Origin: Prosthecobacter sp.
Lineage (GTDB): Bacteria > Verrucomicrobiota > Verrucomicrobiia > Verrucomicrobiales > Verrucomicrobiaceae
Direction of reading: 5' to 3'
DNA: 56,785 bases
Assembly (NCBI GenBank): GCA_021733925.1
Contig: JAIPJY010000046.1
Location: 1-56,785 of the forward strand
The position numbers were made by a program, and so were the translations under genes. Positions 14,693 through 35,281 of the stretch are shown here, in pieces. Numbering within the stretch: the stretch's first letter is position 1; each line of letters starts with the position of its first letter. The notes under the pieces are model-generated. The model was not told the DNA's origin. It worked only from the letters and a program-made list of their open reading frames with translations, and ran no database searches.

Positions 14693-14716
14693 CTATATGA
14701 GCTTATACGCATATAA
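14693..14716. promoter_or_regulatory. Operator A: AT-rich palindrome between the RND operon and arsR1
   Basis: TATATG at 14694-14699 and CATATA at 14710-14715 form the arms of an imperfect 22 bp palindrome. It lies 28 bases before the arsR1 ATG and 18 bases before the divergent lipoprotein gene start. The geometry fits a winged-helix ArsR repressor blocking both promoters. Sites B, C and D in this window share the TATAT/ATATA arms and roughly 24 bp span. Confidence 0.7.
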
Positions 14717-14743
14717 ACACACAGCGCAAACAATTTTTCCACC

Positions 14744-15094
14744 ATGTCCGCCCGCACCTTTAAAAACCTCCCTTCTGTCTCCGATGAGGCGCTCGGCATG
14801 GTCGCCGCATGGTTCCGCACGCTCTCCGAGCCCAGCCGCCTGAAAATTCTGCGCACGCTGGAAGAAGGCGAGAAAAGCATCTCTGAAATCGTCGAGGCCA
14901 GCGGCCTCACTCAGGCAAACGTCTCCCGCCACACCCAGTCACTTGTCGATGCCGGCATTGTGGGCCGCCGCCGCGAGGGGTTGGCAGTGATCTGCTTCAT
15001 CGCCGATCCCAGCATCACCAGTCTCTGTGACAACGTCTGCAACAACCTCCTCAAGCGCCTCACCCATCAGGTGAAAGGACTCGGTGGCTCGTGA
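14744..15094 (+). CDS. ArsR-family repressor 1
   Basis: 116 residues, a winged helix of SmtB/ArsR type. The N-terminal segment SEPSRLKILRTLEEGEKSISE is followed by recognition helix LTQANVSRHTQSLVDAGIV and the wing RRREGLAVICFIAD. Cys84 is in the wing strand; Cys95 and Cys99 form a Cys-x3-Cys pair in the last helix at the dimer interface. The classic ArsR ELCVCDL metal box is absent. Persulfide sensors such as SqrR/BigR use a different Cys spacing, so sulfur sensing is plausible but inferred. It sits next to operator A and is very similar to arsR2. Confidence 0.9.
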   Translation: MSARTFKNLPSVSDEALGMVAAWFRTLSEPSRLKILRTLEEGEKSISEIVEASGLTQANVSRHTQSLVDAGIVGRRREGLAVICFIADPSITSLCDNVCNNLLKRLTHQVKGLGGS

Positions 15095-15147
15095 TTGCCT
15101 GGCTCGTCACGCATAATTTTCCTGACCAAATCTACCCCCCCACCTGA

Positions 15148-16755
15148 ATGCAACAAAACACGACTCCTGCCACGCCCCTGACACGCCGGAAAATGTGCAG
15201 TGCAACTCTCGCCGCGCTGGCATGCGCACCTTTTTCGCGCGCCGGAACACCATCCGCCGAAAAGAAAATCACCCTGGCGTTTTTCGCTGACATCCACGGA
15301 CAGCTTGAAGAACACCCGGAAATGTACTGGGCTGGAGGCAAGGACGAAATTGTGGCCGCAGGAGGCGTGGCGCGCATTGCGAAACTCATGCGCGAGATCC
15401 GCGCCGCCAATCCCGAGGGCACGATCACGCTTGATCTTGGCGACACCATCCAGGGTTCCGGACATGTCGCGATGAGCGAAGGCGTCACCATGGTGGATCC
15501 CATCAATGCGCTGAAACTCGATTACTGGCTGCCTGGAAACTGGGAGGTGATCTTTGGCAAAAAGGTGCTGCTGGACATCAGCAAGAAGCTCACGGCTCCG
15601 GCTGTCGTCGCCAACATGCGCGACGAGAACACGCAGCAGCGCCTGTTCAAACCCTACGTCATTCACCACGCCGCCGGACTGAAAGTCGCCCTCATCGGCT
15701 TCACCGATCCGGATGTCCCAAGGCGTCAGCCCCCGTCCTTCAGCAAAGGCATTCACTATGAAGAGACGGACATTCTTCAACCGCTGGTGGACGAGGCGAA
15801 AAAGGAGGGTCAGGCCGATCTAGTCATACTCATGACCCACATCGGCCTGCCCAAAGCCATTGCTTTGGCGGAAACCCTGAAAGGGGTCGATGTCATTCTT
15901 TCCGCTGACACCCACGAACGCACGGAAGAGGCGGTGATACGAGGCAGCACCTGGGTGGTCGAAGCCGGAGCTTTCGGCTCTCATTTGGGCAAGCTGGATA
16001 TCGTGGTGCAGGATGGCCAGATCACACGCCGAGACTGGGACCTCATCGAACTCCGCGCCAGCCAGTACGGGGAGGATGCCGCTGTGAAGGAACTGGTGGA
16101 AAAATCCCTCGCTCCTTATCGCGACAATCTGAACCGCGTCATTGGCCGCACCCAGTCACCGCTCTTCCGCTACGCGCCGGTGGAGACGCCTGCGGACGCC
16201 GTGCTTGCCGATGCCCTTCGGGCGGCTGGCGGCACCGAGATCGCGCTCTCCAACGGATTCCGTTTCGCCTACCCCATTCCCGTGGGGGACATCACTGAAA
16301 ACGACCTGTGGAACTACTACCCGATCAACTCACGCCTGAAGACCGGCAGGGTCAGCGGCACGCAGTTGCACCAGTTCTTCGAGCGCGAGCTGGAAAATGT
16401 CTTCTCCAAAAATACGAAGCGCCTCTTCGGCGGCTGGGTCCCCCGGACATCCGGCCTCACCTTCAAATTCCATGCCGGCAGGCCCGAAGGCCGGCGCATC
16501 AGCGACATGCGGATCAACGGCCAGCCGGTGCAGGCGGACCGGCTCTACACCCTCACCTCCTGTGAGCGCGAGGGCGATCTGGAAAGCACCGTGTGCCGCA
16601 TGCGCGATGTGATGGATGTCAAAGTGCTCGATGTGGATGCCCACCTGGCGGTGCGTCACTATTTGAAAGAGCACTCCCCCGTCACCATGGGCCAGCCAGG
16701 CCGGGTCGTTTCGCTGGATATATCACCGACCGTACGCAGCCAGTTTATCAACTGA
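15148..16755 (+). CDS. SoxB-like metallohydrolase of the 5'-nucleotidase family, exported
   Basis: 535 residues. A Tat-like leader (LTRRKMCSATLAALAC) precedes a calcineurin-type domain with FFADIHGQLEEH, LDLGDTIQGSG, LPGNWEVIFG, THIGLP and SADTHER motifs, and a C-terminal 5'-nucleotidase domain (LSNGFRFAYP, GDITENDLWNYYPI). The GNWE and SNGFR segments resemble SoxB (GHWE, SNGFRW), the Mn-dependent thiosulfohydrolase, more than UshA. The long SoxB insertion with REPS is lacking, and no soxYZ is present, so the substrate is unknown; a periplasmic sulfur ester or thiosulfonate is one possibility. It is found between the two near-identical arsR genes. Confidence 0.8.
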   Translation: MQQNTTPATPLTRRKMCSATLAALACAPFSRAGTPSAEKKITLAFFADIHGQLEEHPEMYWAGGKDEIVAAGGVARIAKLMREIRAANPEGTITLDLGDTIQGSGHVAMSEGVTMVDPINALKLDYWLPGNWEVIFGKKVLLDISKKLTAPAVVANMRDENTQQRLFKPYVIHHAAGLKVALIGFTDPDVPRRQPPSFSKGIHYEETDILQPLVDEAKKEGQADLVILMTHIGLPKAIALAETLKGVDVILSADTHERTEEAVIRGSTWVVEAGAFGSHLGKLDIVVQDGQITRRDWDLIELRASQYGEDAAVKELVEKSLAPYRDNLNRVIGRTQSPLFRYAPVETPADAVLADALRAAGGTEIALSNGFRFAYPIPVGDITENDLWNYYPINSRLKTGRVSGTQLHQFFERELENVFSKNTKRLFGGWVPRTSGLTFKFHAGRPEGRRISDMRINGQPVQADRLYTLTSCEREGDLESTVCRMRDVMDVKVLDVDAHLAVRHYLKEHSPVTMGQPGRVVSLDISPTVRSQFIN

Positions 16756-16854
16756 CCGGCAGACACTCATGCACCTCCTCATCACATATTCCGGCGCAGC
16801 AAAGGCCAAGGTTTTGGTGGACGAAACCGTCCTCATGATGTTCCAGTCGTTCAA

Positions 16855-16878
16855 CTATATGAGTCAATATTCATATAG
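16855..16878. promoter_or_regulatory. Operator B: palindrome upstream of arsR2 operon
   Basis: CTATATGA at 16855-16862 and TCATATAG at 16871-16878 are perfect 8-base inverted arms around an 8-base centre. The distance to the arsR2 ATG is 28 bases, the same as from operator A to arsR1. It is the most symmetrical of the four sites. Confidence 0.75.
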
Positions 16879-16905
16879 ATTCAACGTGTAAACACTTTCT
16901 CCCCC

Positions 16906-17256
16906 ATGGCCTCACGCACCAAAAAATCCCTGCCGCCGGTCTCTGAGGAGGCCCTCAGTCTCATCGCATCCTGGTTCCGCACACTCGCCGAACCCAGCCG
17001 CTTGAAAATTCTTCGAGCGCTGGAAGAGGGCGAAAAAAACATCACCGAACTCGTCACCGCCACCGGCCTGACGCAGGCGAATGTCTCACGCCATGTACAG
17101 TCGCTCGTGGATGCAGGGATGGTCGGCCGCCGCCGTGAAGGCCTGACCGCGATCTGCTTCATCGCCGATCCGAGCATCACCGAGCTGTGTGACAACGTCT
17201 GCAACAACCTCCTCAAACGTCTCTCTAAACAGGTGAAAAATCTCGGCGGTGCCTGA
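16906..17256 (+). CDS. ArsR-family repressor 2
   Basis: 116 residues, closely similar to arsR1 along its whole length, including AEPSRLKILRALEEGEKNITE, the recognition helix LTQANVSRHVQSLVDAGMV and the terminal LCDNVCNNLLKR with Cys-x3-Cys. It heads the long operon of rhodanese, DsrE, YeeE/YedE, reductase and ABC exporter genes; the next gene starts within 30 bases. Together with arsR1 it looks like a duplicated gene plus promoter. The likely ligand is reactive sulfur, by context only; metals are the alternative. Confidence 0.9.
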   Translation: MASRTKKSLPPVSEEALSLIASWFRTLAEPSRLKILRALEEGEKNITELVTATGLTQANVSRHVQSLVDAGMVGRRREGLTAICFIADPSITELCDNVCNNLLKRLSKQVKNLGGA

Positions 17257-17281
17257 GCCGCCGGTTTCACCCACACCCTCA

Positions 17282-17707
17282 ATGCCCCTTCGAAATATGA
17301 TCTGGACCTTTGTCATTCTCATCGCTGTCATCGTCGGCTGGTATTGGTACGAAGGAGACTGGGACCGCCGTCTCTTCAAAGCGGCCCCTGGCTCCGTGTG
17401 TGCGAACCTCAATGCCGGCCAGGTCAATGCGTGGCTGCGTGAACACCCCGAGACGCAGGTGCTGGATGTGCGCTCCACAGGTGAATTTGAAGGCGGCGCA
17501 CTGCCCCGCGCCGTGAACATCTCCATCGGCGACTCGGACTTCGAGACCAAAGTCGCCGCTCTCAACAAGGAAAAGCCCGTGCTGGTTTATTGCGCCGGCG
17601 GCTTTCGCAGCCGCAAGGCCGTGCTCGTCTTGAAACAACTCGGCTTCCGCAACATCCAGCACATCCACCGCGGCTACATGTCGTGGCAACCCGATTCCCA
17701 ACCATGA
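17282..17707 (+). CDS. Membrane-anchored rhodanese
   Basis: 141 residues. An N-terminal transmembrane helix (MIWTFVILIAVIVGWYWY) is followed by a single rhodanese domain with LDVRSTGEF and the active-site loop YCAGGFRSR, catalytic Cys104. It would carry persulfide sulfur at the outer face of the membrane. The ATG at 17282 is chosen because it directly precedes the helix; an earlier frame start at 17249 would overlap arsR2. It overlaps the DsrE gene by 4 bp. Confidence 0.9.
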   Translation: MPLRNMIWTFVILIAVIVGWYWYEGDWDRRLFKAAPGSVCANLNAGQVNAWLREHPETQVLDVRSTGEFEGGALPRAVNISIGDSDFETKVAALNKEKPVLVYCAGGFRSRKAVLVLKQLGFRNIQHIHRGYMSWQPDSQP

Positions 17708-18186
17708 AACCCCTGCTCTACACCCTCCTCGCCCTCACCCTCTCCTCATCTGCCGCCGAACCGGAGGTCATTCCGATTCAGGTGCGCGAAAACCTGCGCA
17801 TCGTCTATCAGGTGACCGATGACGCGGCCCACGATGGCGTGAACAAGGGACTGTTTTACGCCCGCAAACTCATCAACACCTATGAGAAGCAGGGCATCGC
17901 CGCCGACCAGGTGCATCTGCATCTCGTCTATCACGGCACCGGCATCGCCGCCGTGGTGAATGATGCGGCCCGCAAACGCCTCGGCGTGGATGCGGCCAAT
18001 CCAAACGGCGAAATCCTCGCGGAGATCATCAAGCGCGGCGTGCAGGTGGAGCTGTGTGAAAACACGATGCAGCAGAAAGGCGTGAAGCCCACCGAACTGA
18101 TGCCCGGCGTCAAACTCGTCGTCGGTGCCTTCCCGCGTCTGATTGATCTGCAGTTGCAGGGCTTCGCCTACATCAAGTTTGAGTAG
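17704..18186 (+). CDS. Exported DsrE/DsrF-like sulfur-relay protein
   Basis: 160 residues with a cleavable signal peptide (about 1-18, ending SSSAAEP). The DsrE fold is recognisable from VYQVTDD, LHLVYHGTGI, and VQVELCENTMQQKGV with the conserved Cys118, then PGVKLVVGAFPRLIDLQLQGFAYI. Most DsrE proteins are cytoplasmic; an exported form next to a membrane rhodanese suggests a periplasmic sulfur relay. It is translationally coupled to the rhodanese by ATGA. Confidence 0.88.
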   Translation: MKPLLYTLLALTLSSSAAEPEVIPIQVRENLRIVYQVTDDAAHDGVNKGLFYARKLINTYEKQGIAADQVHLHLVYHGTGIAAVVNDAARKRLGVDAANPNGEILAEIIKRGVQVELCENTMQQKGVKPTELMPGVKLVVGAFPRLIDLQLQGFAYIKFE

Positions 18187-18208
18187 TTCCCTGTTCACTT
18201 CACCAACC

Positions 18209-18730
18209 ATGAAAACACACCTCTGGAATCCCTACCTCGTGGGCGCGCTGATCGGCGTGCTCAGCATCCTCACCTTTACGCTGGCAGACAAGCCCATTGG
18301 CATCTCCACCGGCATCGCGCAGGCCTCTGGTGCCTGTGCCCTGCCGGTGCTGGGCGCGGATGGCGTGGCGGCCAACACTTACTGGGCCAAAAAAGCGGTG
18401 CCTGCCTGGGACTACGGCAGCCTGTTTGTGCTCGGCTCCTTTTTCGGCGCCCTGGTCAGCGCTGTGGTGAGCGGCAGCTTCAAGCTGGAAAGCGTGCCGT
18501 CCCTCTGGCGCGAGCGTTTTGGCCCCTCCGTTGGCAAACGATTCCTCGCCGCGTTCATCGGCGGAGTGGTCATCATCTTCGGAGCGCGGCTGGCGGATGG
18601 CTGCACCAGCGGTCACGGCATCAGTGGTTCGCTGCAGCTCGCTGTGAGCAGCTGGACCTTCTTCATCGCCATGTTTATCAGCGGCATCGTCACCGCCTTC
18701 ATCCTCTTCCGCAGCACCTCCAAATCCTGA
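18209..18730 (+). CDS. YeeE/YedE-family transporter, half 1
   Basis: 173 residues with about four transmembrane segments. Diagnostic Cys motifs are GIAQASGACAL and LADGCTSGHGISG, characteristic of YeeE/YedE (DUF395) proteins, whose TsuA member imports thiosulfate through Cys sites. Half-length proteins of this type occur in pairs, and the partner follows 4 bp downstream. It would move thiosulfate or a related sulfane compound across the inner membrane. The ATG at 18209 follows the upstream stop by 22 bases. Confidence 0.9.
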   Translation: MKTHLWNPYLVGALIGVLSILTFTLADKPIGISTGIAQASGACALPVLGADGVAANTYWAKKAVPAWDYGSLFVLGSFFGALVSAVVSGSFKLESVPSLWRERFGPSVGKRFLAAFIGGVVIIFGARLADGCTSGHGISGSLQLAVSSWTFFIAMFISGIVTAFILFRSTSKS

Positions 18731-18734
18731 TCTT

Positions 18735-19310
18735 ATGCACACACTTCTCGCCTTCATCACCGGATCCAATCTGCTCTGGGCCGGACTGCTCTTTGGTTTC
18801 ATCTTTGGCGTGCTGCTGCATCGCGGCGGCGTCACGGACTTCAATGTCATTGTGAAGCAGTTTCTGTTTCGCGACTTCACCGTGCTCAAGGTCATGTTCA
18901 CCGCCATCGTCGTCGGTGGTGTGGGCCTGTTCATCCTGCATGGGCAGGAGCTGTCCAACTGGCACATCAAACCCGCCCACATGCTCGCAGTCATTCTCGG
19001 CGCGCTGCTCTTTGGCATCGGCATGGTGATCTACGGTTACTGCCCCGGCACGGGCATCGCCGCCATCGCGACCGGCAAGCTGGATGCGCTCGTGGGCTTC
19101 CTGGGAATGCTCGTCGGTGCGGCGGGCTATGCGCTGTGCTACGACTGGATCGCCGCGAACATCCTGCCTGTGGCCGATCTCGGTAAAAAGCGCCTGCCTG
19201 AACTCACCACGCTGCCGGAGTGGGTGTGGTATGCGGGGCTGGTGGTCATGGCGGCCGTTGTCTTTGCGCTCGTCGCACGTTTTGAAAGAACCCCATCCAA
19301 ATCCTCATGA
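18735..19310 (+). CDS. YeeE/YedE-family transporter, half 2
   Basis: 191 residues, about five helices. It has the family signature GYCPGTGIAAIATGKLDAL with its conserved Cys, and FGVLLHRGGVTDF near the N-terminus. It pairs with half 1 as a split transporter and overlaps the start of the reductase gene by 4 bp. Confidence 0.9.
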   Translation: MHTLLAFITGSNLLWAGLLFGFIFGVLLHRGGVTDFNVIVKQFLFRDFTVLKVMFTAIVVGGVGLFILHGQELSNWHIKPAHMLAVILGALLFGIGMVIYGYCPGTGIAAIATGKLDALVGFLGMLVGAAGYALCYDWIAANILPVADLGKKRLPELTTLPEWVWYAGLVVMAAVVFALVARFERTPSKSS

Positions 19311-20980
19311 AACCCCAACGTCTGGTCATCATCGGAGGCGTCGCGGGTGGTGCCAGCGCCGCCGCACGTGCACGCCGCCTGTCCGAAACCTGTGAAATCA
19401 CCCTGCTGGAGCGCGGTCCCCACGTCTCCTTTGCCAACTGCGGCCTGCCTTACTTCGTAGGCGGTGAGATCACGAATGAGGAGGATCTGCTGGTGCAGAC
19501 GCCGAAGAGCCTGCACGCGCGCTTCAACCTCGACGTGCGTGTGCACAGCGAGGTCGTGTCCATTGATCGCGAGGCGAAAGTGGTCAGCGTCCGCGAGCTG
19601 ACGAACGGCCGCGAATACGCCCTGCCCTACGATGCGCTCGTCATTTCCACAGGCGCAGCACCGCTGACCCCGCCGATTCCCGGCATCCAGCGCGAGGGCC
19701 ATTTCGTGGTGCGCAACGTGCCTGACGTGGTGCGGATCAAATCATGGATCAGCGAGACCGAGGACAGCCGGGCCGTGGTGGTCGGCGGCGGTTACATCGG
19801 TTTGGAAATGGCGGAGCAGCTCGTCCGGCATGGCGGTGTCTCCGTTTCACTTGTCGAAGCATTGCCGCAGGTCATGGCGCCGCTCGACCCCGAGATGGCC
19901 GCGTGGCTGCATCTGGAGCTCAAGCAGCATGGCGTCGAGCTTTGCACCGGCAGCGCCGTGGCCGCGTTTGAAGCGCCGACCGACGCTGAACCCGCCCGAG
20001 CCTCCATCGTGGTGCTCAAAGATGGCCGCCGGCTGCCTGCGGATGTTGTAGTGCTCGGCATGGGCGTGAAACCTGAGAGCGCCCTGGCCAAAGCCGCCGG
20101 TCTTGAGATCGGCGGTCGCGGTGGCATCCGCGTGAATGAGCGCATGCAGACAAGCGATCCGGCGATCTATGCCGTCGGCGATGTCGTGGAAGTGCGCGAT
20201 GTCATCACCGGCGAGTGGAGCCTGATCCCGCTGGCAGGTCCGGCGAACCGCCAGGGCCGCATCGCTGCGGACAACATCATGGGCCGCAACTCCGCCTACC
20301 ACGGCACGCAGGGCACGGCCGTGCTGCGACTCTTTGGCCTCACCGCAGGCTGCACGGGCGCGAACGAAAAGACGCTGCGTGCTGCTGGCAGATCCTACCA
20401 GGCGCTGCATCTGCATCCGGCCTCCCATGCGGGCTATTATCCCGGCGCGGAACCCATTGCGATGAAGGTGCTCTTTGACCCGGACACCGGCAGGCTGCTC
20501 GGTGCTCAAGCCGTGGGCCGCGATGGCGTGGACAAGCGCCTCGATGTCCTGGCCACCGCGCTCAAATCCGGCATGACCATGGATGATCTCGCCGAGCTGG
20601 AACTGGCCTATGCGCCGCCGTTTGGCTCCGCCAAAGATCCCGTGAATCTCATCGGCATGGCCGCGCAAAACGTGCTCGCCGGAGATGTGGTGCTCGCGCA
20701 GTGGCATGAGATTGCCACGCTTGATCCTGACAAGACCCTCGTGCTGGACGTGCGCCGGGCCGACGAGCGCGCCAAGGGCTTCATCCCCGGCTCCATGCAC
20801 ATCCCGCTGGATGAACTGCGCGGACGCCTGGACGAACTGCCGAAGGACAAGGAGATCATCGCCTCCTGCCAGAGCGGCCAGCGCAGCTACTTCGCCTGCC
20901 GCATGCTCACGCAGCATGGCTTCAAAGAAGTGCGCAACCTCGCCGGCTCATGGCGTACCTTCAGCACGGCCACCCGCTGA
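19307..20980 (+). CDS. CoA-disulfide/persulfide reductase with C-terminal rhodanese
   Basis: 557 residues. FAD-binding GGVAGGASAAARARR is at the N-terminus and the single redox-active Cys45 lies in FANCGLPYFVGG, typical of CoA-disulfide reductases and NADH:persulfide reductases. An NAD-binding VVGGGYIGLEMAEQL, the dimerisation domain, and a rhodanese domain from about 460 (LDVRRADERAKGF; ASCQSGQRSYF with Cys near 521) complete it. The rhodanese fusion is that of CoADR-Rhd enzymes that reduce polysulfide or persulfide to sulfide. It is cytoplasmic. Confidence 0.92.
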   Translation: MKPQRLVIIGGVAGGASAAARARRLSETCEITLLERGPHVSFANCGLPYFVGGEITNEEDLLVQTPKSLHARFNLDVRVHSEVVSIDREAKVVSVRELTNGREYALPYDALVISTGAAPLTPPIPGIQREGHFVVRNVPDVVRIKSWISETEDSRAVVVGGGYIGLEMAEQLVRHGGVSVSLVEALPQVMAPLDPEMAAWLHLELKQHGVELCTGSAVAAFEAPTDAEPARASIVVLKDGRRLPADVVVLGMGVKPESALAKAAGLEIGGRGGIRVNERMQTSDPAIYAVGDVVEVRDVITGEWSLIPLAGPANRQGRIAADNIMGRNSAYHGTQGTAVLRLFGLTAGCTGANEKTLRAAGRSYQALHLHPASHAGYYPGAEPIAMKVLFDPDTGRLLGAQAVGRDGVDKRLDVLATALKSGMTMDDLAELELAYAPPFGSAKDPVNLIGMAAQNVLAGDVVLAQWHEIATLDPDKTLVLDVRRADERAKGFIPGSMHIPLDELRGRLDELPKDKEIIASCQSGQRSYFACRMLTQHGFKEVRNLAGSWRTFSTATR

Positions 20981-20990
20981 TACGAACCTT

Positions 20991-21914
20991 ATGAAAAACA
21001 ACTTCCTGCGTCGTCTCCTGCCCTGGCTTGCAGTCATCGCCGTACTCGGATTGGCGTTCTACAAGTTCAAGCCGGCTCCGAAGCCAGTCGAGGAGCCCAG
21101 GCTGAGTCAAGACAGCATCATGCATGAGGTGATGGGCACCGGCACGCTGGAGGCGCGCGTGAAGACGACGGTGAGCGCACGCATTCAAGAGCGGCTGGCA
21201 GAGGTGCTGGTCGATCAGGGAGATGCGGTGAAAGCCGGGCAGTTGCTCGCACGGCTCGACGACGCGGAAATCAAGCAGCAGGTGGCCATCGCGGAGGCTA
21301 CTTTGGCAGCGGCGCGGCAGACAGCGGCGCGAGTGAGCGCGGATCTGGCACGCTCTGAGGCGGTGCTGGCGCAGGCCCGGCTCGAGCACCAGCGCATGAC
21401 CGGCCTGCGAACCTCCAACGCTGTTTCCCAGACGGACGCAGACAAAGCTTCTGAAGCGCTGCATGTGGCGGAGGCTGATCTGAACCGCTCTAACGCGACC
21501 ATCGCCGAGGCGCAGGCCCAGGTGCTGGTGGCGGAAAAGACGCTGCTGTATCGCAAGGAGCAGATGGCCTTCACGGAAATTCGCGCACCTTACGACGGGC
21601 TCATCATCCTGCGCAGTCGCGAACCTGGAGACATGCTCGTGCCAGGGGGCTCATTGATGGAACTCATCTCGCTGGAAGAAATCTGGGTGAGTGCGTGGGT
21701 CGATGAAACTGCCATTTCAAAAATCGCGCCCGGCCAGAAGGCGCGCATCGTTTTCCGTTCCGAAAGCGGCAAAGACTACCCCGGAGTGGTCTCCCGCATC
21801 GGCCGCGAGACAGACCGCGAGACGCGCGAGTTTCTCGTTGATGTGCGTGTGGGCGAACTGCCGAAAAACTGGACCATCGGCCAGCGCGCGGAGGTGTTCA
21901 TCCAGCTGCCATGA
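20991..21914 (+). CDS. HlyD-type adaptor of an ABC exporter
   Basis: 307 residues from the ATG at 20991. An N-terminal anchor helix (LLPWLAVIAVLGLAFYKF), a lipoyl half (VDQGDAVKAGQLLARLDDAE), a long coiled-coil hairpin, and a second half (FTEIRAPYDGLIILRSREPGD) are present. It overlaps the permease by 4 bp, so adaptor, permease and ATPase form a tripartite MacAB/DevBCA-like exporter. No outer-membrane channel gene is nearby. Its placement after the persulfide reductase is unusual and suggests export of a sulfur compound or protein; that is inference. Confidence 0.88.
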   Translation: MKNNFLRRLLPWLAVIAVLGLAFYKFKPAPKPVEEPRLSQDSIMHEVMGTGTLEARVKTTVSARIQERLAEVLVDQGDAVKAGQLLARLDDAEIKQQVAIAEATLAAARQTAARVSADLARSEAVLAQARLEHQRMTGLRTSNAVSQTDADKASEALHVAEADLNRSNATIAEAQAQVLVAEKTLLYRKEQMAFTEIRAPYDGLIILRSREPGDMLVPGGSLMELISLEEIWVSAWVDETAISKIAPGQKARIVFRSESGKDYPGVVSRIGRETDRETREFLVDVRVGELPKNWTIGQRAEVFIQLP

Positions 21915-23125
21915 ACCTCGCCGTCCGCGACATTCGGCACAACTCGGGCCGCTTTGTGTTTACCACGCTGGGCATCGGCCTGCTGCTGATGATCGTGATG
22001 GGCATGGGCGGCATCTATCGTGGTCTCATCTATGAAGCCACCCTGCTGGTGGACCGTGTGGGCGCAGATCTGTGGGTCGTGCAGGGCGGCACACGCGGGC
22101 CGTTTGCGGAGGTCTCGCGGATTTCAGCCAGCCTGGAGGACCGCGTGCGCGCGGTGCCGGGCGTGGCCAATGCACGCCGCTTCGTATCGCACACGATTCA
22201 ACGCGTGCATCAGGGCAGGCCGCTGCGAATGGTGGTGCAGGGCCTTTCGTGGCCGGAGGATCGCGGCGGGTGGATTCCGCTGGTGGCAGGGCGTGCGCTG
22301 CGGCAGGCGCATTATGAAATGATCGCCGATCTGTCACTGCACCTGCCTTTGGGTGAAAAAGTCAGGCTCGGCAAGGATGTCTATGAAGTCGTTGGCCACA
22401 CGCGCGGCATGGTCGGCACCAGTGGCGATGGACTGACTTTTTTCACTGTGAGCGATGCGCTGGCGATTCAATCTGACGTGCCGGGAGAAGCCGTGCGCCT
22501 GGAACGCGCCGCACGACGTGCACGGTTGGAGGACATCGAGATCGGCCGCCTGCAGCCTCTGCTGCTGGATCGCGCTGCCGGCCCCTCCGGCAGCATTCCC
22601 GCGCTGTCGAAGCCGCAGGTCAGCGCCGTGCTTGTGACCTTGCAGCCTGGCGCGGATGCCGCAGCCGTTCGTGCCACGCTCTCGAACTGGCCGGACATCT
22701 CGGTTTTCTCCACTCAGGAGCAAAAGGACCTGCTGCTCTCCGGCATGGTGGACAAGGCGAAGCGCCAGCTCGGCCTTTTCCGCGTTCTCCTGATCATCAT
22801 TTCGACCATCATCATCGCTCTGATCATCTACACGCTCACGCTCGACAAAATTCGCGACATCGCCCTGCTGAAGCTCATTGGCGCCCGCAATGGAGTCATC
22901 GGTGGTCTCATTCTGCAGCAGTCGCTTCTCATGGGCGCTTTTGGTTATGCGCTGGCGTGGGTCATCGGGCAGTTCACGTTCCCCCACTTTCCGCGTCTCG
23001 TCGTCGTGGAGCGGTCAGACCTCATGTCACTCGGCTTCATCGTCCTCGTCATCTCCACACTCGCCAGCCTGCTCGGCATCTGGAAAGCCCTGCGCGTGGA
23101 GCCCAACACCGTCCTCTCCGCATGA
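21911..23125 (+). CDS. FtsX-type ABC transporter permease
   Basis: 404 residues. One transmembrane helix lies near the N-terminus (FVFTTLGIGLLLMIVMGMGG), then a large periplasmic domain (about 45-285), and three helices at the C-terminus (LLIIISTIIIALIIYTL; LLMGAFGYALAWVIG; LGFIVLVISTLASLLGIW). This is the four-helix MacB/DevC topology. The motif KLIGARNGVIGGLILQQSLLMG is the FtsX coupling region. Overlaps both neighbours by 4 bp. Confidence 0.9.
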   Translation: MNLAVRDIRHNSGRFVFTTLGIGLLLMIVMGMGGIYRGLIYEATLLVDRVGADLWVVQGGTRGPFAEVSRISASLEDRVRAVPGVANARRFVSHTIQRVHQGRPLRMVVQGLSWPEDRGGWIPLVAGRALRQAHYEMIADLSLHLPLGEKVRLGKDVYEVVGHTRGMVGTSGDGLTFFTVSDALAIQSDVPGEAVRLERAARRARLEDIEIGRLQPLLLDRAAGPSGSIPALSKPQVSAVLVTLQPGADAAAVRATLSNWPDISVFSTQEQKDLLLSGMVDKAKRQLGLFRVLLIIISTIIIALIIYTLTLDKIRDIALLKLIGARNGVIGGLILQQSLLMGAFGYALAWVIGQFTFPHFPRLVVVERSDLMSLGFIVLVISTLASLLGIWKALRVEPNTVLSA

Positions 23126-23835
23126 GCGCCCCCGCCGTCGAAGTCCAGCATCTGCGCAAAGTGTATGGCAGCGGCCACACCGAAGTCGTTGCCATCCGCG
23201 ATGCCTCGCTGACCATCGCACGCGGAGAGATCGTCGGCATGCTCGGCCCCAGCGGCTCCGGCAAGTCCACCATCCTCACCGCGATGGCGCTGATCAATCC
23301 TCCCACATCAGGACAGGTGATGATCGGTGGCGCTGCCGTGCTTGATGGTCCGAAGGCGCTCGTCGATCTGCGCGCCTTTCGCCGCCAGCATCTCGGGTTC
23401 GTGTTTCAAAAGGCCAACCTCATCCCCTTTCTCACCGCATTGGAAAACGTGCAGATCGCCCTCGAGGTCAACGACACCGCCCCGAAGGCCGCACGCGCAC
23501 GCGCGATGGAACTGCTCGACTACCTCGGCGTCGGCGAGCGTGCCGGCAACCTGCCCGTCGCCCTCTCCGGTGGCGAGCAGCAGCGTGTCGCCGTGGCCCG
23601 GGCGCTGGCCAACAACCCCAGCCTCATCCTCGCCGACGAACCCACTGCCGCGCTCGACAGCCAGCGCGGACGCCAGGTGATGGAACTCTTTGCCAAAGTC
23701 GCCCACGAGCGCAACGCAGGCGTCCTCGTCGTGACCCACGATCACCGCACGCTCGATGTCTTTGACCGCATCGTGGATGTAGAAGATGGCATGATCCACG
23801 AGCGCCCGCCTTCTCAACCCGTCCAATCCTCCTGA
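23122..23835 (+). CDS. ABC transporter ATP-binding protein
   Basis: 237 residues from the ATG at 23122. Walker A GPSGSGKST, signature [15 protein letters not shown], Walker B LILADEPTAALD and the switch His in VVTHDHR are all present. It is of the LolD/MacB class and closest in position to the FtsX permease, with which it overlaps. Last gene of the run that begins with arsR2 (16906-23835), in which most spacings are under 30 bp or overlapping. Confidence 0.93.
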   Translation: MSAPAVEVQHLRKVYGSGHTEVVAIRDASLTIARGEIVGMLGPSGSGKSTILTAMALINPPTSGQVMIGGAAVLDGPKALVDLRAFRRQHLGFVFQKANLIPFLTALENVQIALEVNDTAPKAARARAMELLDYLGVGERAGNLPVALSGGEQQRVAVARALANNPSLILADEPTAALDSQRGRQVMELFAKVAHERNAGVLVVTHDHRTLDVFDRIVDVEDGMIHERPPSQPVQSS

Positions 23836-26775: not shown

Positions 26776-29013
26776 TCAGACTTTGCGCAGCGCGCGCGGG
26801 ACGCAGTTGGTCGTGCCGGTGAGCGTGGCGTCCTGGCTGAAAACCACCTTCGGGAGATCCGTCGCGGCCGACCGTCCACCACGCTTGGTCGCGATGACGG
26901 GATGCTTTTTCAAATACTCCACGAGTGCCTCGTGAACACTCAGCGGTTCGATCTTCGGCTCGCTCGCGCCGCGCAGGCGGCAGATCATGGCGAGCGGTTC
27001 GCCGTCGCGTTCGCAGCCGCCGATGGTGAAGTGCGCGGCATCGTCCACCTCGCGGTCGTTCACTTTGAGTGAGACGACGCGTTTGCCCGGCGGATTCATG
27101 GCGGTAAAGACCACGGCGAGGCCGGAGGCGCGCGGCCCCCAGCCGCCGGAGAGCTTCCACGGATCTTTGGAAAAGACGAGTTCCAGCTCGTTTTCAATAT
27201 AGTCGCGCAGCTGCCGGCCGGTGACGGTGCCGGTCTTCATGCGCGTGTCGAGCGGCAGCATGTTCCAGAGGTCAGCGGTGGTGATCGGGCCAGCCGGCAG
27301 CGGCGGGCCAAAGCGGAAGCCATTGGTGAAGCCAATGTCGGTGCCTGTCATCTCGCGCACGGCGTCGGCGATGAAGACGTCGGTGTTCGTTTCGAGCACG
27401 TCGTAGCGCATGAGCAGCCGGTTCGTCTGGCCGGCGACGGTGTTCATCCGCGCGCGGTGCGGCGCGAGGGCGGCATCGACGAGGGCCTTGACCTTGGCGT
27501 CTTCAGGAAACTCGCCAGCGCGAATCGGGATGAGCCGAAACTCGTGGCTGGCGATGCCGCCCTTCTCGCCCAGCGTGATGTCGAGCCGCCCGAGAAAGGA
27601 TGCCATTGCGCCTGGCTCCACGATGAGCACCTTGCCCTCGATGATCGGTTCGACGGTGCGTTCATGGGTGTGGCCGGAGAGGATGACGTCGAGCTCAGGA
27701 ATCTCGCGCGCAAGCTGCCGCGAAACCGTGAGGCCGGAGTGCGAAATGATGACGACGAGATCCGCGCGCTCCTTCTCGCGCGTCGCTTTCACGAACTCGC
27801 GCAGCCCTTCCATCCGCGTGGAATCAAGACCGCGCACCTGCGCGGGCGGCTGGCGCACAGTCGTCGTCGGATCGGCAATGCCGATGAAGGTGACACGAAC
27901 GCCGTCCTTTTCCAACGTGACCGCAGGTGCGAAGAGGCGCCGGCCCGTGGCGGTGTCGTGGAAGTTGTAGGCGATGACCGGCGCGGTGAGTTTTGCCATC
28001 AGCTCCTTGAAGCGCTCCGGCCCGTAAACCACCTCCCAGTTTCCCGGCACAAATGCATCAAGCCCGAGCGCGTTCAGCGGCGCGATCACGACTTCGCCCT
28101 GCGACCATGCAGCCGGGCCGGAACCTTGCACGGCGTCGCCACTGTCCACGAGAATACTCGGACCCGCGACCTTGGCACGTTCACGCTTGATCGCGGTCAT
28201 GAGCCGCGCGAAGCCGCCCATGTCCTGGATCTCCGGCGTTTCACCGGGCATGTAGTCAGGGTGCGTTTCGAGCTGCGCGTGCGTGTCGGCCATGTGCAGC
28301 AGCGTCACCCGGCGCCCTGCGGTCCGGGCTGGATTCTGCGTGGCGTGCACGAGTGAGTGGCTGGCGGCAGCAGCCGCAGTGGTGGTGGTGAGAAAAGTGC
28401 GACGGTTCATGGAATGAAGGGAAAGGGACCGAAGGAAGGATGAAAGGGTGCGGGTGCTCTTTAACAGCGCGGGCTTGATGGCAGCTTCAAATCCGGCCAG
28501 GCTCGCGCCGCCCTTGATGTTCCCGGCCAGCCTGCCGTCCCGACCGATGATGAAGGTGGTCGGGATCGACGAGATGCCGCCATACGCCTCGGCGGTTTGC
28601 TGATCGCCCATGACGATGGGGTAATGGATGCCCGACTTCGTGGCAAAGGACTGCACACCGGCTGCGCCGCCTTCATCCAGCGAGACGCCGATGACCACCA
28701 CTTCTTGATCGGCATACTTGTCATGCAGCGCGACGAGGTCTGGGATTTCTCTCCGGCATGGAGGACACCAGGTGGCCCAAAAGTTCAGCACGACAACTTT
28801 GCCTTTGAAGTCGGAGAGTTTGACCGTCCTGCCATCAAGCCCTGGCAGAGCCCAATCGGGTGCTGCGGATTCGCCACCCGCTCTGCTGCTCATGGGGATG
28901 ATGCCTCGTGGCCGGGAAAGGCCGCAACCACCCGAGGAACTATTGCAGAAAGCCCAGCCCGCGAATGCGATGCCGACGGCGAGGAAGAGGACGGTGACTT
29001 TGTCGAGTTTCAT
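26776..29013 (-). CDS. TlpA-like thioredoxin fused to a SoxB-like metallohydrolase
   Basis: 745 residues in one uninterrupted frame from the ATG at 29013. Residues 1-195 are an exported TlpA/ResA-like thioredoxin: anchor helix, then FWATWCPPCRREI (Cys83/Cys86), and SIPTTFIIGRDG. Residues 202-745 are a second SoxB-like 5'-nucleotidase-family enzyme with HMADTHAQLETH, DSGDAVQGSG, VPGNWEVVYG, GHTHER and TNGFRFGPP. The junction holds an in-frame ATG at 28410 followed by a Tat-type leader (MNRRTFLTTTTAAAA), so this was probably two genes joined by loss of the first stop; both full-length and internally started products may form. It is divergent from arsR3 and behind operator C. Confidence 0.8.
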   Translation of the reverse strand: MKLDKVTVLFLAVGIAFAGWAFCNSSSGGCGLSRPRGIIPMSSRAGGESAAPDWALPGLDGRTVKLSDFKGKVVVLNFWATWCPPCRREIPDLVALHDKYADQEVVVIGVSLDEGGAAGVQSFATKSGIHYPIVMGDQQTAEAYGGISSIPTTFIIGRDGRLAGNIKGGASLAGFEAAIKPALLKSTRTLSSFLRSLSLHSMNRRTFLTTTTAAAAASHSLVHATQNPARTAGRRVTLLHMADTHAQLETHPDYMPGETPEIQDMGGFARLMTAIKRERAKVAGPSILVDSGDAVQGSGPAAWSQGEVVIAPLNALGLDAFVPGNWEVVYGPERFKELMAKLTAPVIAYNFHDTATGRRLFAPAVTLEKDGVRVTFIGIADPTTTVRQPPAQVRGLDSTRMEGLREFVKATREKERADLVVIISHSGLTVSRQLAREIPELDVILSGHTHERTVEPIIEGKVLIVEPGAMASFLGRLDITLGEKGGIASHEFRLIPIRAGEFPEDAKVKALVDAALAPHRARMNTVAGQTNRLLMRYDVLETNTDVFIADAVREMTGTDIGFTNGFRFGPPLPAGPITTADLWNMLPLDTRMKTGTVTGRQLRDYIENELELVFSKDPWKLSGGWGPRASGLAVVFTAMNPPGKRVVSLKVNDREVDDAAHFTIGGCERDGEPLAMICRLRGASEPKIEPLSVHEALVEYLKKHPVIATKRGGRSAATDLPKVVFSQDATLTGTTNCVPRALRKV

Positions 29014-29312: not shown

Positions 29313-29429
29313 GAGGATGGAGGGGTGGGTTTTGAATGACCGCCCGCCCGGCGAAAAGGTCGCCCACGGAGGGACGATGATTCCGCCATTGCAGAGCGGC
29401 AGGGTTGGGGTTACAATCCATACGTCCAT

Positions 29430-29453
29430 ATAACTGCATAGTTATGCATTTAT
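29430..29453. promoter_or_regulatory. Operator C: palindrome between the DUF6132-TlpA/SoxB operon and arsR3
   Basis: ATAA-n-TGCATA at 29430-29440 mirrors TATGCA-n-TTAT at 29443-29453. It is 16 bases before the arsR3 ATG. The arms carry TGCATA where A, B and D have TATATG-type arms, which fits the more diverged recognition helix of ArsR3. Confidence 0.65.
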
Positions 29454-29468
29454 ATTGATTAGTTCACC

Positions 29469-29849
29469 ATGGCCCGCCCCAAAATATCCCCCGCCTCGCT
29501 CTCGCCCGAGGCGCTCGACCTCATCGCCGCCCGGTTCAAGCTGCTCGCCGAGCCGATGCGGCTGCGTCTTCTGCAGGCGCTTTATGAAGATGAGCGCAAC
29601 GTCACGCAGCTCGTGGAAGCCAGCGGAGCCACGCAGGCCAATGTCTCCAAACACCTCGGTCTGCTTTGCGACGCAGGCATCCTCCACCGCCGCAAGGATG
29701 GGCTGCACGTTTTATACGCCATCGCCGACAGCATGGTCTTCGACCTCTGCACCCTCGTCTGCTCGCGCCTCCAAACCGACCTCGAACGCAAGGTCACGCA
29801 CTTTCAGACAAAGCCGGCAGCCCAGGAGCTGAAGATTCGATCCCGATGA
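29469..29849 (+). CDS. ArsR-family repressor 3
   Basis: 126 residues. LAEPMRLRLLQALYEDERNVTQ and recognition helix ATQANVSKHLGLLCDAGIL identify the winged helix. It keeps the terminal Cys pair (DLCTLVCSRL) found in arsR1 and arsR2 but lacks the wing Cys and has an extra Cys in LLCDAG. Diverged from the other two, it would control the divergent DUF6132-TlpA/SoxB operon and its own downstream methyltransferase genes through operator C. Confidence 0.9.
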   Translation: MARPKISPASLSPEALDLIAARFKLLAEPMRLRLLQALYEDERNVTQLVEASGATQANVSKHLGLLCDAGILHRRKDGLHVLYAIADSMVFDLCTLVCSRLQTDLERKVTHFQTKPAAQELKIRSR

Positions 29850-29943
29850 GCAAACGGGGTCAGGCGTTGAAAGCGCGTTCGTTCTCCGGCATAGATCCAC
29901 TTACCACCACAGCCACGCAATCCCCCTCCAACTGACAACCACC

Positions 29944-30621
29944 ATGCGCCCCATCCTCCCACTCCTCCTTCTATTTGCTGCCCACGCTTTTGCCCAGGAT
30001 CAAAGTGTCAAACCCGGCATCAACGACAAGTTCCTCGATCCCAAGCTCAAGGTCGGGGAGTGGACGCAGAAGTTTGAAACCGAGAGCCGCGAAATCTACC
30101 ACCAGCGGGAGAAGATCGCCGCTGCGGTCGGCTTGAAGCCCGGCATGGCCATGGCGGACATCGGCGCGGGCACGGGCCTCTTCACACTGCCGTTTTCACA
30201 GGCTGTTGGAGAGAGCGGCAAAGTGTATGCGGTCGATATCGCGAAGAACTTCCTCGAACACATCCAGGCCCGCGCCACGAAGGCACATGCGGCGAATGTG
30301 CAGACGATCCAGTGCACGGGGCGCAGCGTCGAGCTCCCGGAGGCCAGCGTCGATCTCGCATTCATCTGCGATGTGTATCACCATTTTGAATTCCCGCAGG
30401 CCAGCCTCGCCACGCTGCACAAGGCACTGAAGCCCGGCGGCGTGCTGGTGCTGATCGACTTCAAACGCATCCCCGGCGAAAGCAGCGATTTCGTCATGGG
30501 CCACGTCCGCGCCGGACAGGAGGTCTTCGAGGCCGAAGTCACCGCGGCCGGTTTCGAGAAGTTCGACGAGGTGAAGGATGTGCTGAAGGAGAACTACTTC
30601 GTGAAGTTTCGGCGGAAGTAG
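29944..30621 (+). CDS. Exported SAM-dependent methyltransferase-like protein
   Basis: 225 residues with an N-terminal signal peptide (MRPILPLLLLFAAHAFAQ). A class I methyltransferase core follows: MADIGAGTGLFTLPF (SAM motif I), VYAVDIAKNF, FICDVYHHF (post-motif II) and LKPGGVLVLIDFKR. A SAM-dependent fold outside the cytoplasm is odd because SAM is cytoplasmic; the signal may act as an anchor, or the fold has another function. It is preceded by arsR3 and followed by a membrane methyltransferase, 11 bases away. Confidence 0.8.
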   Translation: MRPILPLLLLFAAHAFAQDQSVKPGINDKFLDPKLKVGEWTQKFETESREIYHQREKIAAAVGLKPGMAMADIGAGTGLFTLPFSQAVGESGKVYAVDIAKNFLEHIQARATKAHAANVQTIQCTGRSVELPEASVDLAFICDVYHHFEFPQASLATLHKALKPGGVLVLIDFKRIPGESSDFVMGHVRAGQEVFEAEVTAAGFEKFDEVKDVLKENYFVKFRRK

Positions 30622-30632
30622 AACGAAACCTC

Positions 30633-31106
30633 ATGAAATCCGCCGCGCTCAAAGACTTGACATGGGTGACCGTGCAGCTGGTCCTGCTCGCGGCGCTGTT
30701 GATGATGCCTGCTTTCGGCCTTCTGCCGTTTGTCGTGCCACTGCGCCCGCTGGGGTGGCTGCTGTGCATCGCCGGTCCGGCCCTGTCGGGCGTGGCGAGC
30801 TGGCAATTGCATGCGGGGCGCTCGCTCACGCCAATGCCTTCACCACGTACGGGAGCCGCTCTGCTCGTGGACGGAATGTATCGCCGCGTCAGACATCCGG
30901 TTTACAGCGGCCTGCTCATCTGGGCTCTCGGCATCGCGATAGCGGCGGCGAGCATCCTGCATTTCGTTCTGTTCGGAATGCTTTGGGCCTTCTTCAATGC
31001 CAAGGCAGCGCATGAAGAACGACTGCTTGCCCAGCAATTCAGCAACTATCCAGAGTATGCAGCCCGCACGCCACGTTTCTTCCCTTCACTAATCCAATCA
31101 AGATGA
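30633..31106 (+). CDS. Membrane methyltransferase, ICMT/PEMT family
   Basis: 157 residues with about four transmembrane helices. The C-terminal half has the isoprenylcysteine-carboxyl-methyltransferase-like signature RRVRHPVYSGLLIWALG, then EERLLAQQFSNYPEYAARTPRFFP. Bacterial members methylate lipids or small thiols; methanethiol-forming members are known in related families. Its position between sulfur genes makes thiol methylation possible, but this is inference. Confidence 0.82.
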   Translation: MKSAALKDLTWVTVQLVLLAALLMMPAFGLLPFVVPLRPLGWLLCIAGPALSGVASWQLHAGRSLTPMPSPRTGAALLVDGMYRRVRHPVYSGLLIWALGIAIAAASILHFVLFGMLWAFFNAKAAHEERLLAQQFSNYPEYAARTPRFFPSLIQSR

Positions 31107-31168
31107 AACACCCCTTCCTCCTCCACCAGCTGCCATCGCTCAACACCGCAGCCAGCTCACCAAACTGA
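31103..31168 (+). CDS. Tiny ORF bridging two genes, possibly a coupling peptide or remnant
   Basis: 21 codons beginning MKHPFLLHQLPS. Its ATG overlaps the upstream TGA (ATGA), and its own TGA ends one base before the next ATG at 31170. The arrangement would keep ribosomes moving between the methyltransferase and the cytochrome gene. It may equally be the eroded start of a lost gene. Evidence is positional only. Confidence 0.25.
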   Translation: MKHPFLLHQLPSLNTAASSPN

Positions 31169-31169
31169 C

Positions 31170-31907
31170 ATGAGCCGGGGCCCTTTCAACTTGCTCATCG
31201 ACCTGCTGGCAGCAGCCAGCCTGCTGGTGATGGTGGCCACCGGCTATGTGCTGCGCTTTCCGCTGCCACCAGCAACAAACCGCACGCATGAGCTGTGTGG
31301 GCTGTCGCGGCATGAGTGGGGCACCATTCATTCCTGGGCCAGTCTTGTGCTGCTGCTGGTCCTTGTCATTCATGTGGTGCTTCACTGGGACTGGATCGTC
31401 ACCATGATCCGCCATCGCTTCACTTGTCTTCAAGGCGGTGGTGCCAACGGTGGACATTACGCCGGACGGGTGACGCTGGCCGTGCTCTTCACCCTTGCCG
31501 GTTTGTTTGCTCTGGCGACCCACCTCGGCGTGCGGGAAAGAGAGGTGCCGCTGCATCCGCTCAACGAACCGCCGGACCATGCCACCTCCGTCACTGCCAG
31601 CCCCCGCATGGGCAAGGTCGATTTCTGGAAGGAAATCATGCCCGTGTTTCAAGCGTCCTGCATCAAATGTCATGGGCCGACGCGGCAGACCTCCGGCTTC
31701 CGCGCTGACCTGCGTGAGGATTTCTTTTCATCTCGAAATGGAGCGCCGCTGGTCGTGCCAGGTGACGTTGCAGGAAGCCGGTTGCTCAACATTATCTCTG
31801 GAAAGCAGCCATCCATGAAGGCCGCTGCGGCGCACCAACTGCCAGCCGGTGACATCCTGCTGCTCAAGACATGGGTCGAGTCAGGAGCCGACTGGCCAGC
31901 CAGATAG
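31170..31907 (+). CDS. DUF4405 membrane domain fused to cytochrome c domain
   Basis: 245 residues. The N-terminal half has three to four helices with DUF4405 features, including His in GTIHSWASLVLLLVLVIHVVLHWDW, likely b-haem ligands. A periplasmic domain from about 150 carries the haem c motif CIKCH with downstream Met/His candidates, resembling planctomycete-type cytochrome c. It may pass electrons from a sulfur oxidation step to the quinone or terminal pathway. The gene converges on the TonB receptor. Confidence 0.82.
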   Translation: MSRGPFNLLIDLLAAASLLVMVATGYVLRFPLPPATNRTHELCGLSRHEWGTIHSWASLVLLLVLVIHVVLHWDWIVTMIRHRFTCLQGGGANGGHYAGRVTLAVLFTLAGLFALATHLGVREREVPLHPLNEPPDHATSVTASPRMGKVDFWKEIMPVFQASCIKCHGPTRQTSGFRADLREDFFSSRNGAPLVVPGDVAGSRLLNIISGKQPSMKAAAAHQLPAGDILLLKTWVESGADWPAR

Positions 31908-32000
31908 CGGAAGACCCGCCTCGAAAAAACAGGGAGAAGTCACTGGCTGCGTCCAGGAGATTTCAACCTCTGGTGCCACCCATGGCAGGCGGAACATTGA

Positions 32001-32030
32001 CGGTGCCCGTTCCTCTTTGTTCAGGCACCG
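32001..32030. terminator. Hairpin between convergent genes
   Basis: CGGTGCC at 32001-32007 pairs with GGCACCG at 32024-32030, loop 16 bases. It lies in the 144-base convergent gap between the cytochrome and TonB genes, where a bidirectional terminator is expected. No T-run follows, so efficient intrinsic termination is uncertain. Confidence 0.4.
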
Positions 32031-32051
32031 CCGAATGTCGTGCGCATGGCG

Positions 32052-34142: not shown

Positions 34143-34271
34143 AAATGGAAAAAAGTGAACGAAATGGAGGAATGAAAGGCAGACGCATGTGACATGCGTG
34201 CCGTCGAGACAGGGACCTGGCAGTCCTGCTCAGGGAATCAGTGACTCAGCGCAAACGGCTGACGTGTGTGT

Positions 34272-34682
34272 TCAAGCCTGCCCGCATCGTGGCGGTGGCG
34301 TCTCCGGCGCCTGGCATCGCCGCACAGCCGACTGGCGCGGCATGACGAAGGTAAAATCATCCGCCGAAGGCGCGGTCAGTGTCGTGATGTTCACCAGCAC
34401 GGCATGCAGCTTGCTGGCAGCCTGCGGAGACTGCTGAGGCTGCTTTCCCTCGGCTTCACGATCTTTCTGCACCGCCTTGCAAAGCGGACAGGGGTGCTCG
34501 CCATCAAAGGTCATCTCCACAGCCCCCAGCAGTGTGGTTTCACTCGCGTAATGCACCAGCATCTGTGTCCAGGCGATTCCTTGAATCACTCCGCGATGCA
34601 GTCCCAGCGAGAGGCACACCAGCAGCACGATCCCGAACCGCAGGCGGCGGGATGGCATTCTGCGTGGTGTGGCGGGAGTCAT
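34272..34682 (-). CDS. Small exported protein with CPLCK motif (DUF2946-like)
   Basis: 136 residues from the ATG at 34682. A basic N-terminus then a hydrophobic helix (FGIVLLVCLSLGLH) act as signal or anchor. The motif EHPCPLCKAVQKDREAEGK resembles the Cys-x2-Cys segment of DUF2946-type proteins that accompany TonB copper receptors. The C-terminal third is not conserved-looking. Probably co-transcribed with the receptor 130 bases downstream. Confidence 0.55.
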   Translation of the reverse strand: MTPATPRRMPSRRLRFGIVLLVCLSLGLHRGVIQGIAWTQMLVHYASETTLLGAVEMTFDGEHPCPLCKAVQKDREAEGKQPQQSPQAASKLHAVLVNITTLTAPSADDFTFVMPRQSAVRRCQAPETPPPRCGQA

Positions 34683-34767
34683 TCGAATCAATGCGGTTCA
34701 ATTCAAACGTGAGAATGAAGAATGCCTCCGCGACTTGAATGGGAATCGTTGTGTCAAAATTGTGCTT

Positions 34768-35226
34768 TCAGTTGTTCCTCATCCACGCCAGCAAGCGATC
34801 AGCGGGCTGGAAGCCGCTCGTTTGAGCAGCAACTTTGCCGTCTTTGATCAGCGCAAAGGCGGGAATGCCCTGGACGCGGAACTGACCGGCGATGTCCTGC
34901 CGCTCGTCGGTGTTCACTTTCACGAGGATGGCGGTACCGGCGGCCTTGGCGGCGGCTTTAGCGAATTCGGGAGCCATCATCTGGCAGGGGCCGCACCAGG
35001 GGGCCCAGAAATCAACGACGACAGGCAGCGTGCTGTGACTGATGAGCGCGGCGAAATCAGACGCACGGGTGATCTCGACAGGTTCGGCCACGTGGGGCAG
35101 TTCTGCTTTGCAGGTCCCGCAGCGGCCTTGCAGCGCGGCTTTGGCGTAGGCGATGCGGTTGGCGGTGCCGCAGGCGGGACAGGGGAGGATGATGCCACGA
35201 TCATCGGCGGTCAGGTGGGAGCTCAT
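34768..35226 (-). CDS. trxC: TrxC-like thioredoxin with N-terminal zinc finger
   Basis: 152 residues from the ATG at 35226. An N-terminal zinc ribbon (Cys16, Cys19, Cys36, Cys39) and the active-site WCGPC at 77-81 match thioredoxin 2 (TrxC), which is cytoplasmic and stress-induced. The C-terminal strand FALIKDGKV is intact. It is divergent from sqr across operator D, so it belongs to the same regulon and probably reduces persulfides or disulfides on the sulfur carriers. Confidence 0.9.
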   Translation of the reverse strand: MSSHLTADDRGIILPCPACGTANRIAYAKAALQGRCGTCKAELPHVAEPVEITRASDFAALISHSTLPVVVDFWAPWCGPCQMMAPEFAKAAAKAAGTAILVKVNTDERQDIAGQFRVQGIPAFALIKDGKVAAQTSGFQPADRLLAWMRNN

Positions 35227-35257
35227 AATTGACAAGATTGGTGGGGCATTAACTATT

Positions 35258-35281
35258 GTATATACGCATACGCGCATATAG
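35258..35281. promoter_or_regulatory. Operator D: palindrome between trxC and sqr
   Basis: TATAT-n-CGC at 35259-35267 mirrors GCG-n-ATATA near 35272-35280. It lies 32 bases before the trxC ATG and 32 bases before the sqr ATG, centred on the divergent promoter region. Arms match operators A and B. There is no arsR gene at this site, so a repressor would act in trans. Confidence 0.65.

Follow-up and report, generated by a model that had tools for sequence, protein, structure and literature searches.

The regulators nearest in kind to those considered here are the sulfane-sulfur sensors of the ArsR family, among them BigR, SqrR, SoxR, sHdrR, YgaV and HlyU. All known persulfide sensors of ArsR type are reported to fall within one cluster of sequences with cysteines in helices alpha2 and alpha5, and the As(III) sensors that have three cysteines in alpha5 fall in another (PMC10509353). 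Genes for sqr, rhd, pdo, TauE, YeeE and RND pumps occur near sulfane-sulfur ArsR regulators, and H. denitrificans has two such repressors with overlapping regulons (PMC12423496). SoxR of this organism binds several intergenic regions (PMC10451225), and in A. baumannii BigR controls a yeeE/yedE/pdo2 operon (PMC7315123). In this study we analysed a stretch of 56,785 nucleotides from Prosthecobacter sp. (contig JAIPJY010000046.1, hereafter the window), in which a palindrome shared by three promoter gaps links two closely related ArsR genes, arsR1 and arsR2, with genes for efflux, sulfur transfer and sulfide oxidation. It is suggested here, with a probability of about 0.6, that ArsR1 and ArsR2 jointly repress these functions through the shared site, with sulfane sulfur as the signal. 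The original prediction for this DNA had considered a three-repressor regulon for reactive sulfur without sox or dsrAB genes to be new; as a kind, a sulfur regulon with several ArsR proteins has a precedent in H. denitrificans (PMC12423496). The type of regulon is already known, and what differs is the set of conserved cysteines of the repressors in comparison with the known sulfur sensors.

The shared site is a 22-bp palindrome, TATATG-N10-CATATA. Site A (14694..14715), between the divergent orf165-MFP-RND genes (minus strand; MFP being the adaptor) and arsR1-soxB-like1 (plus strand), and site B (16856..16877), upstream of arsR2, both match this pattern exactly. Site D (35259..35280), between the divergent trxC (minus) and sqr (plus), reads TATATA-N10-CATATA and so has one mismatch. 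Four palindromes had originally been reported, and all were found at the positions given, at distances of 28, 28, 16 and 32 bases from the start codons of arsR1, arsR2, arsR3 and sqr, respectively, and with the TATAT/ATATA arms that A, B and D had been said to have in common; the distance from D to the start of trxC is likewise 32 bases, and that from A to the start of the divergent orf165 is 18. The genome to which the window belongs (7,315,188 bases) contains only two exact places of the pattern, A and B, where simple proportion would lead us to expect about 0.02, and two places with a single mismatch, which are D and position 120640 of contig C123. Fourteen places have two mismatches, and a reversed control pattern gave 15 at up to two mismatches; two-mismatch places are thus background, from which A, B and D stand out. 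On this sequence evidence A, B and D look like versions of a single conserved site, which is predicted to function as an ArsR operator.

Analysis of related genomes proved informative about this site. Scanning genome contigs with ArsR2 returned 39 loci, all from metagenome-assembled genomes titled Verrucomicrobia-, Prosthecobacter or Akkermansia, whose ArsR proteins together with ArsR1 and ArsR2 make up clade 1. The site is present upstream of arsR with at most one mismatch in 32 of the 39, beginning 48-62 bases before the matched arsR start, and the remaining seven have it at two mismatches (three loci) or at four (four loci). As a control, forty patterns with permuted arms were run over the same 540,855 bases; none had an exact match anywhere, and their single-mismatch places numbered six in total. 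The consensus core across the ortholog sites is ACTrTATGAGTCTATACGCATATAGt. Among 189 genomes of the order, 25 contain a stricter form of the pattern and none the control; the places number 33. Annotation of 24 of them put 22 next to arsR2, one beside the pump and one between trxC and sqr; two further places are A and D themselves. Site D is present in all 14 of the trxC/sqr gaps aligned, the window counted, and no conserved block in these gaps is longer (L082, with a partial sqr, and L157, with trxC only, were excluded by the filter). The original proposal had been to search for the palindrome at arsR-rhodanese or sqr loci, and the A/B/D type is indeed kept there, in 32/39 arsR loci and 14/14 trxC/sqr gaps. 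The link it had drawn between efflux, the operon of arsR, rhodanese, DsrE, YeeE and CoA-disulfide reductase (CoADR), and trxC/sqr is in this way supported by conservation of A, B and D in relatives. In five loci (L063, L072, L073, L074 and L081) other genes separate the pump from arsR and each side retains a site, so that the promoter of the pump seems to be a target by itself. As judged from translations, KatG-like and LysR-type genes lie between the two site copies in three of these loci (L063 4836-8185, L073 5482-8810 and L074 5544-8872).

Binding of ArsR1 and ArsR2 at A, B and D is suggested both by adjacency and by a sister clade in which the site and the recognition helix are both different. 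The sister clade was represented by 20 loci (L146-L165) fetched out of 26 hits at approximately 44-54% identity, the window excluded and the other six hits left out. Its site, ATATyGC-N6-GCrATAT, is similar to that of clade 1 in size and dyad but different in sequence. It is present, with no more than two mismatches, in 16 of the 20 loci, which are the same loci from which the pattern was derived. With one mismatch allowed it occurs at 27 places in 25 of the 189 genomes, and the control pattern at none. The recognition helix reads xGQANVSKH in 18 of the 20 sister-clade proteins versus LTQANVSRH in 40 of the 41 proteins of clade 1. Helix and site change together, which at the level of sequence is the best sign that the ArsR proteins may bind these sites. 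Two overlapping copies of the sister site were also seen in another genome (G068, contig C32, 30847-30874), away from any ArsR hit.

The genes next to the three sites include several that point to sulfur. Site A is flanked by the RND pump, adaptor and orf165 genes (9549..14675, minus strand; no family match for orf165) and, on the plus strand, by arsR1 (14744..15094) and SoxB-like metallophosphatase 1 (15148..16755). Site B precedes arsR2 (16906..17256), a rhodanese (17249..17707; PF00581, 61 bits), a DsrE-like protein (17704..18186; PF02635, 37 bits), two YeeE/YedE half-transporters (18212..19310; PF04143, 80 and 66.5 bits), a CoA-disulfide-reductase-like protein with a rhodanese domain (19307..20980; TIGR03385, 474 bits, below the cut-off of 579; PF00581, 60.7 bits) and an HlyD-like adaptor, ABC permease and ABC ATPase (20985..23835), all on the plus strand. 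Site D separates a trxC-like thioredoxin gene (34768..35226, minus strand; PF00085, 105 bits; TIGR01068, 103 bits, over 96.8; TrxC model, 108 bits, under 125) from a type III sulfide:quinone reductase (SQR) gene (35313..36542, plus strand), identified by 601 bits against NF049943 with its cut-off of 525, and from genes for DsrC-like and DsrE2-like proteins (36565..37422, plus strand; PF04358, 100 bits; PF13686, 106 bits). ArsR1 and ArsR2, as well as the third ArsR protein of the window, ArsR3, belong to the ArsR/SmtB family, scoring 71.6, 74.2 and 75 bits, respectively, against NF033788 (cut-off 55). ArsR1 and ArsR2 are 78% identical, and the unit arsR1-soxB-like1, site B included, may have arisen by duplication or been inserted between the pump and arsR2.

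By tblastn (E<=1e-8), 30/39 clade-1 and 18/20 sister-clade loci showed similarity to at least one of eight of the window's sulfur genes, and these loci therefore share with those of sulfane-sulfur sensors a neighbouring gene for sulfur oxidation or transport. As judged from translations, the neighbours in sister-clade locus L146 are a rhodanese, an MBL-rhodanese, DsrE, a further rhodanese and a TauE-like permease, and those in L156 a rhodanese and a CoADR-rhodanese. It is because of these partner genes that sulfane sulfur is favoured as the likely signal, and the gene content and the shared site together fit a reactive-sulfur regulon. In such a regulon ArsR1 and ArsR2, as closely related winged-helix repressors, would bind the same operator in three promoter gaps. 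Site A would control the RND pump and arsR1-soxB-like, B would control arsR2-rhodanese-DsrE-YeeE-CoADR and the exporter, and D would control trxC and sqr-dsrC-dsrE2, in each case presumably by repression. Rising sulfane sulfur, as persulfide or polysulfide, could modify Cys84 in the wing strand and Cys95 and Cys99 in alpha5, and the modified repressor would then release the DNA and allow the sulfide-oxidising, sulfur-transferring and exporting proteins to be made.

It is in these cysteines that ArsR1 and ArsR2 depart from the described sensors. They share with BigR, SqrR, SoxR, sHdrR, YgaV and HlyU the ArsR fold (6o8o, 3pqj and 4k2e are among the fold matches), similar targets (sqr, rhodanese, YeeE and RND pumps) and, as in H. 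denitrificans, the occurrence of two ArsR paralogues on one sulfur regulon. The known proteins are defined by the alpha2/alpha5 cysteine pair; ArsR1 and ArsR2 instead have the set Cys84-x10-Cys95-x3-Cys99, which is invariant in all 41 ArsR1/2 proteins (ArsR1, ArsR2 and the 39 orthologs) and is also present in 20/20 sister-clade proteins. Beyond these three there is one extra cysteine in one of the 41, and none after position 99. A structure model (mean pLDDT 88) places Cys84 in the strand 81-86 and Cys95 and Cys99 in the helix 90-112. Membership of the BigR/SqrR group was rejected on the cysteines and on the NCBIfam BigR model, against which ArsR1 scored 40.9 and ArsR2 34 bits (cut-off 155). 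No description of the site, or of an ArsR protein with the C-x10-C-x3-C set, was found in the open-licence literature, nor was a regulator of such type in Verrucomicrobiota, the sole paper returned dealing with an arsenic-rich wetland (PMC8552739). ArsR1 and ArsR2 might represent a second, undescribed class of ArsR sulfane-sulfur sensor, in which the dimer helix alpha5 would carry the persulfide or polysulfide at Cys95-x3-Cys99, partnered by Cys84 of the wing, in place of an alpha2-alpha5 bridge, and which would be found in two sister clades of Verrucomicrobiota with two operators, TATATG-N10-CATATA and ATATyGC-N6-GCrATAT. This proposal is a tentative one, to which we would give a little less than an even chance.

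Several observations weigh against a regulon of this kind with sulfane sulfur as its signal. The alpha2/alpha5 pair of the characterised sulfane-sulfur ArsR proteins is missing from ArsR1/2, and the position of the SqrR alpha2 cysteine aligns with Arg37, an arginine in 41/41 of these proteins. Cys84 is lacking in ArsR3 and in six relatives of it at the level of the class. The site itself is imperfectly kept: four of the 39 clade-1 loci offer nothing better than a four-mismatch site, four of the 20 sister-clade loci are without their site at two mismatches, and only 18 of the 27 places of the sister pattern have an ArsR hit at a distance of about 110 bases or less, nine being elsewhere. None of the eight sulfur genes was found in 9/39 clade-1, 2/20 sister-clade and 4/6 class-level loci, in fetched DNA that was in some cases short, and the RND pump, present in 27/39 clade-1 and 4/6 class-level loci, would also fit a sensor of drugs or metals. 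The best match among solved structures, by sequence (49 bits) and by fold (38% identity), is Rv0081 of M. tuberculosis, which is no known sulfur sensor and has no known link to sulfur. Rv0081 is assigned to a largely uncharacterised cluster of the sequence similarity network (SSN) that is tied to the hypoxic response (PMC10509353).

The main rival to sulfane sulfur as the signal is a thiophilic metal(loid), As(III), Sb(III) or Cd(II), sensed by a three-cysteine site, with the pump as main target and the sulfur genes aiding thiol repair. Three invariant cysteines could allow trigonal coordination; ArsR1/2 do not have the cysteines that define persulfide sensors and could resemble the three-cysteine alpha5 As(III) sensors. 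These atypical sensors make up SSN cluster 5 and draw every ligand from alpha5 (PMC10509353), and by description they also have their cysteines near alpha5; ArsR1/2 have two of the three in alpha5 and place one in the wing strand. The fold matches include the antimony repressor AntR and the As(III) repressor 6j0e, and an RND pump accompanies 27 of the 39 loci; on the cysteines of AntR nothing was found in the open-licence literature among the matches listed. On the other hand the pump scores below the cut-off of the CusA/CzcA-type model (227 against 701 bits), the Acr3 of this genome lies on another contig, and a search with a single query, limited to Acr3, gave no homologue in any of the 65 loci or in the window; a link to sulfur is suggested by such partners as SQR, rhodanese, DsrE and DsrC. 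We consider a metal(loid) signal unlikely. A further suggestion arises from site D, which trxC shares. The ArsR protein RexT is a sensor of H2O2 that switches on thioredoxin (PMC8960804), and ArsR1/2 might by similar logic be sensors of peroxide or disulfide stress with trxC as a target, a reading with which the KatG-like and LysR-type genes between pump and arsR in L063, L073 and L074 (from translations) would agree. Unlike ArsR1/2, whose only cysteines are 84, 95 and 99, RexT has its sensor pair at Cys40 and Cys41 in alpha3, and D would serve sqr, dsrC and dsrE2 as well as trxC; a role of this type seems very unlikely to us.

The sulfur regulon proposed here would have two repressors. The original prediction had included three, together with four shared palindromes; our reading keeps ArsR1 and ArsR2 with A, B and D and sets ArsR3 and palindrome C apart. 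Palindrome C (29431..29452; TAACTGCATAGTTATGCATTTA, 9/11 pairs) lies upstream of arsR3 (29469..29849, plus strand) and is best regarded as a separate, unconfirmed site. It is overlapped by a shorter palindrome, and the window contains 12 22-mers with at least 9/11 pairs, C and D included, so that C alone is only weakly above chance. It was ruled out as a member of one set with A, B and D on its different sequence, its failure against a matrix derived from the sites of the orthologs (best score -6.8) and the lack of ortholog support. ArsR3, with Cys67, Cys94 and Cys98, is 47-49% identical to ArsR2; identities range over 45-56% for its other hits in the 189 genomes of the order, and over 54-58% for the best ones in 387 of the phylum. 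We treat ArsR3 and C as a branch apart from ArsR1/2. A common set of sites for ArsR1, ArsR2 and ArsR3, which would be compatible with the other readings, is distinctly unlikely, given that C itself does not match and that the ArsR3 helix reads ATQANVSKH compared with LTQANVSRH in ArsR1/2; it draws some support from the location of the three arsR genes within 15.1 kb and from the helix core TQANVS, which ArsR3 has too. The six class-level relatives of ArsR3, from five genomes, keep the alpha5 CxxxC, and five of their six loci have TATATG-N10-CATATA with up to one mismatch (three exact), which could also speak for a common set. DUF6132 is found near four of the six, as is a pump with 63-66% identity to that of the window. 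The presence of an A/B-type site at these relatives suggests that the site type is older than the ArsR1/2 family; the promoter of arsR3 in the window deviates from it.

Downstream of arsR3 (window 29944-31106) are genes for a methyltransferase whose N-terminus is signal-like and for an ICMT/NnrU-like protein, and relatives of the methyltransferase occur in 14/39 arsR2 loci. The two SoxB-like proteins of the window reached 271 (SoxB-like 1) and 286 bits against TIGR04486, and with a cut-off of 550 their identity as SoxB was rejected. At 26776-29013 (minus strand) TlpA-like and SoxB-like regions share one unbroken frame, as the result either of a genuine fusion or of an indel in the assembly. 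No match to SoxY was found in the genome and none in the control genomes either, so that absence of sox is not demonstrated; the dsrA model likewise had no match in the genome, where 8 of 14 control genomes matched, all below the cut-off. The NCBIfam model passed by the SQR is named for the selenoprotein subtype of type III, and there is no in-frame TGA before its stop.

Taken as a whole, the analysis gives an ArsR regulon linked to the handling of sulfide and sulfane sulfur a defined site, likely targets and an alternative set of cysteines. It opens to test how ArsR regulators that lie beside sulfur genes may work without the known cysteine pair.

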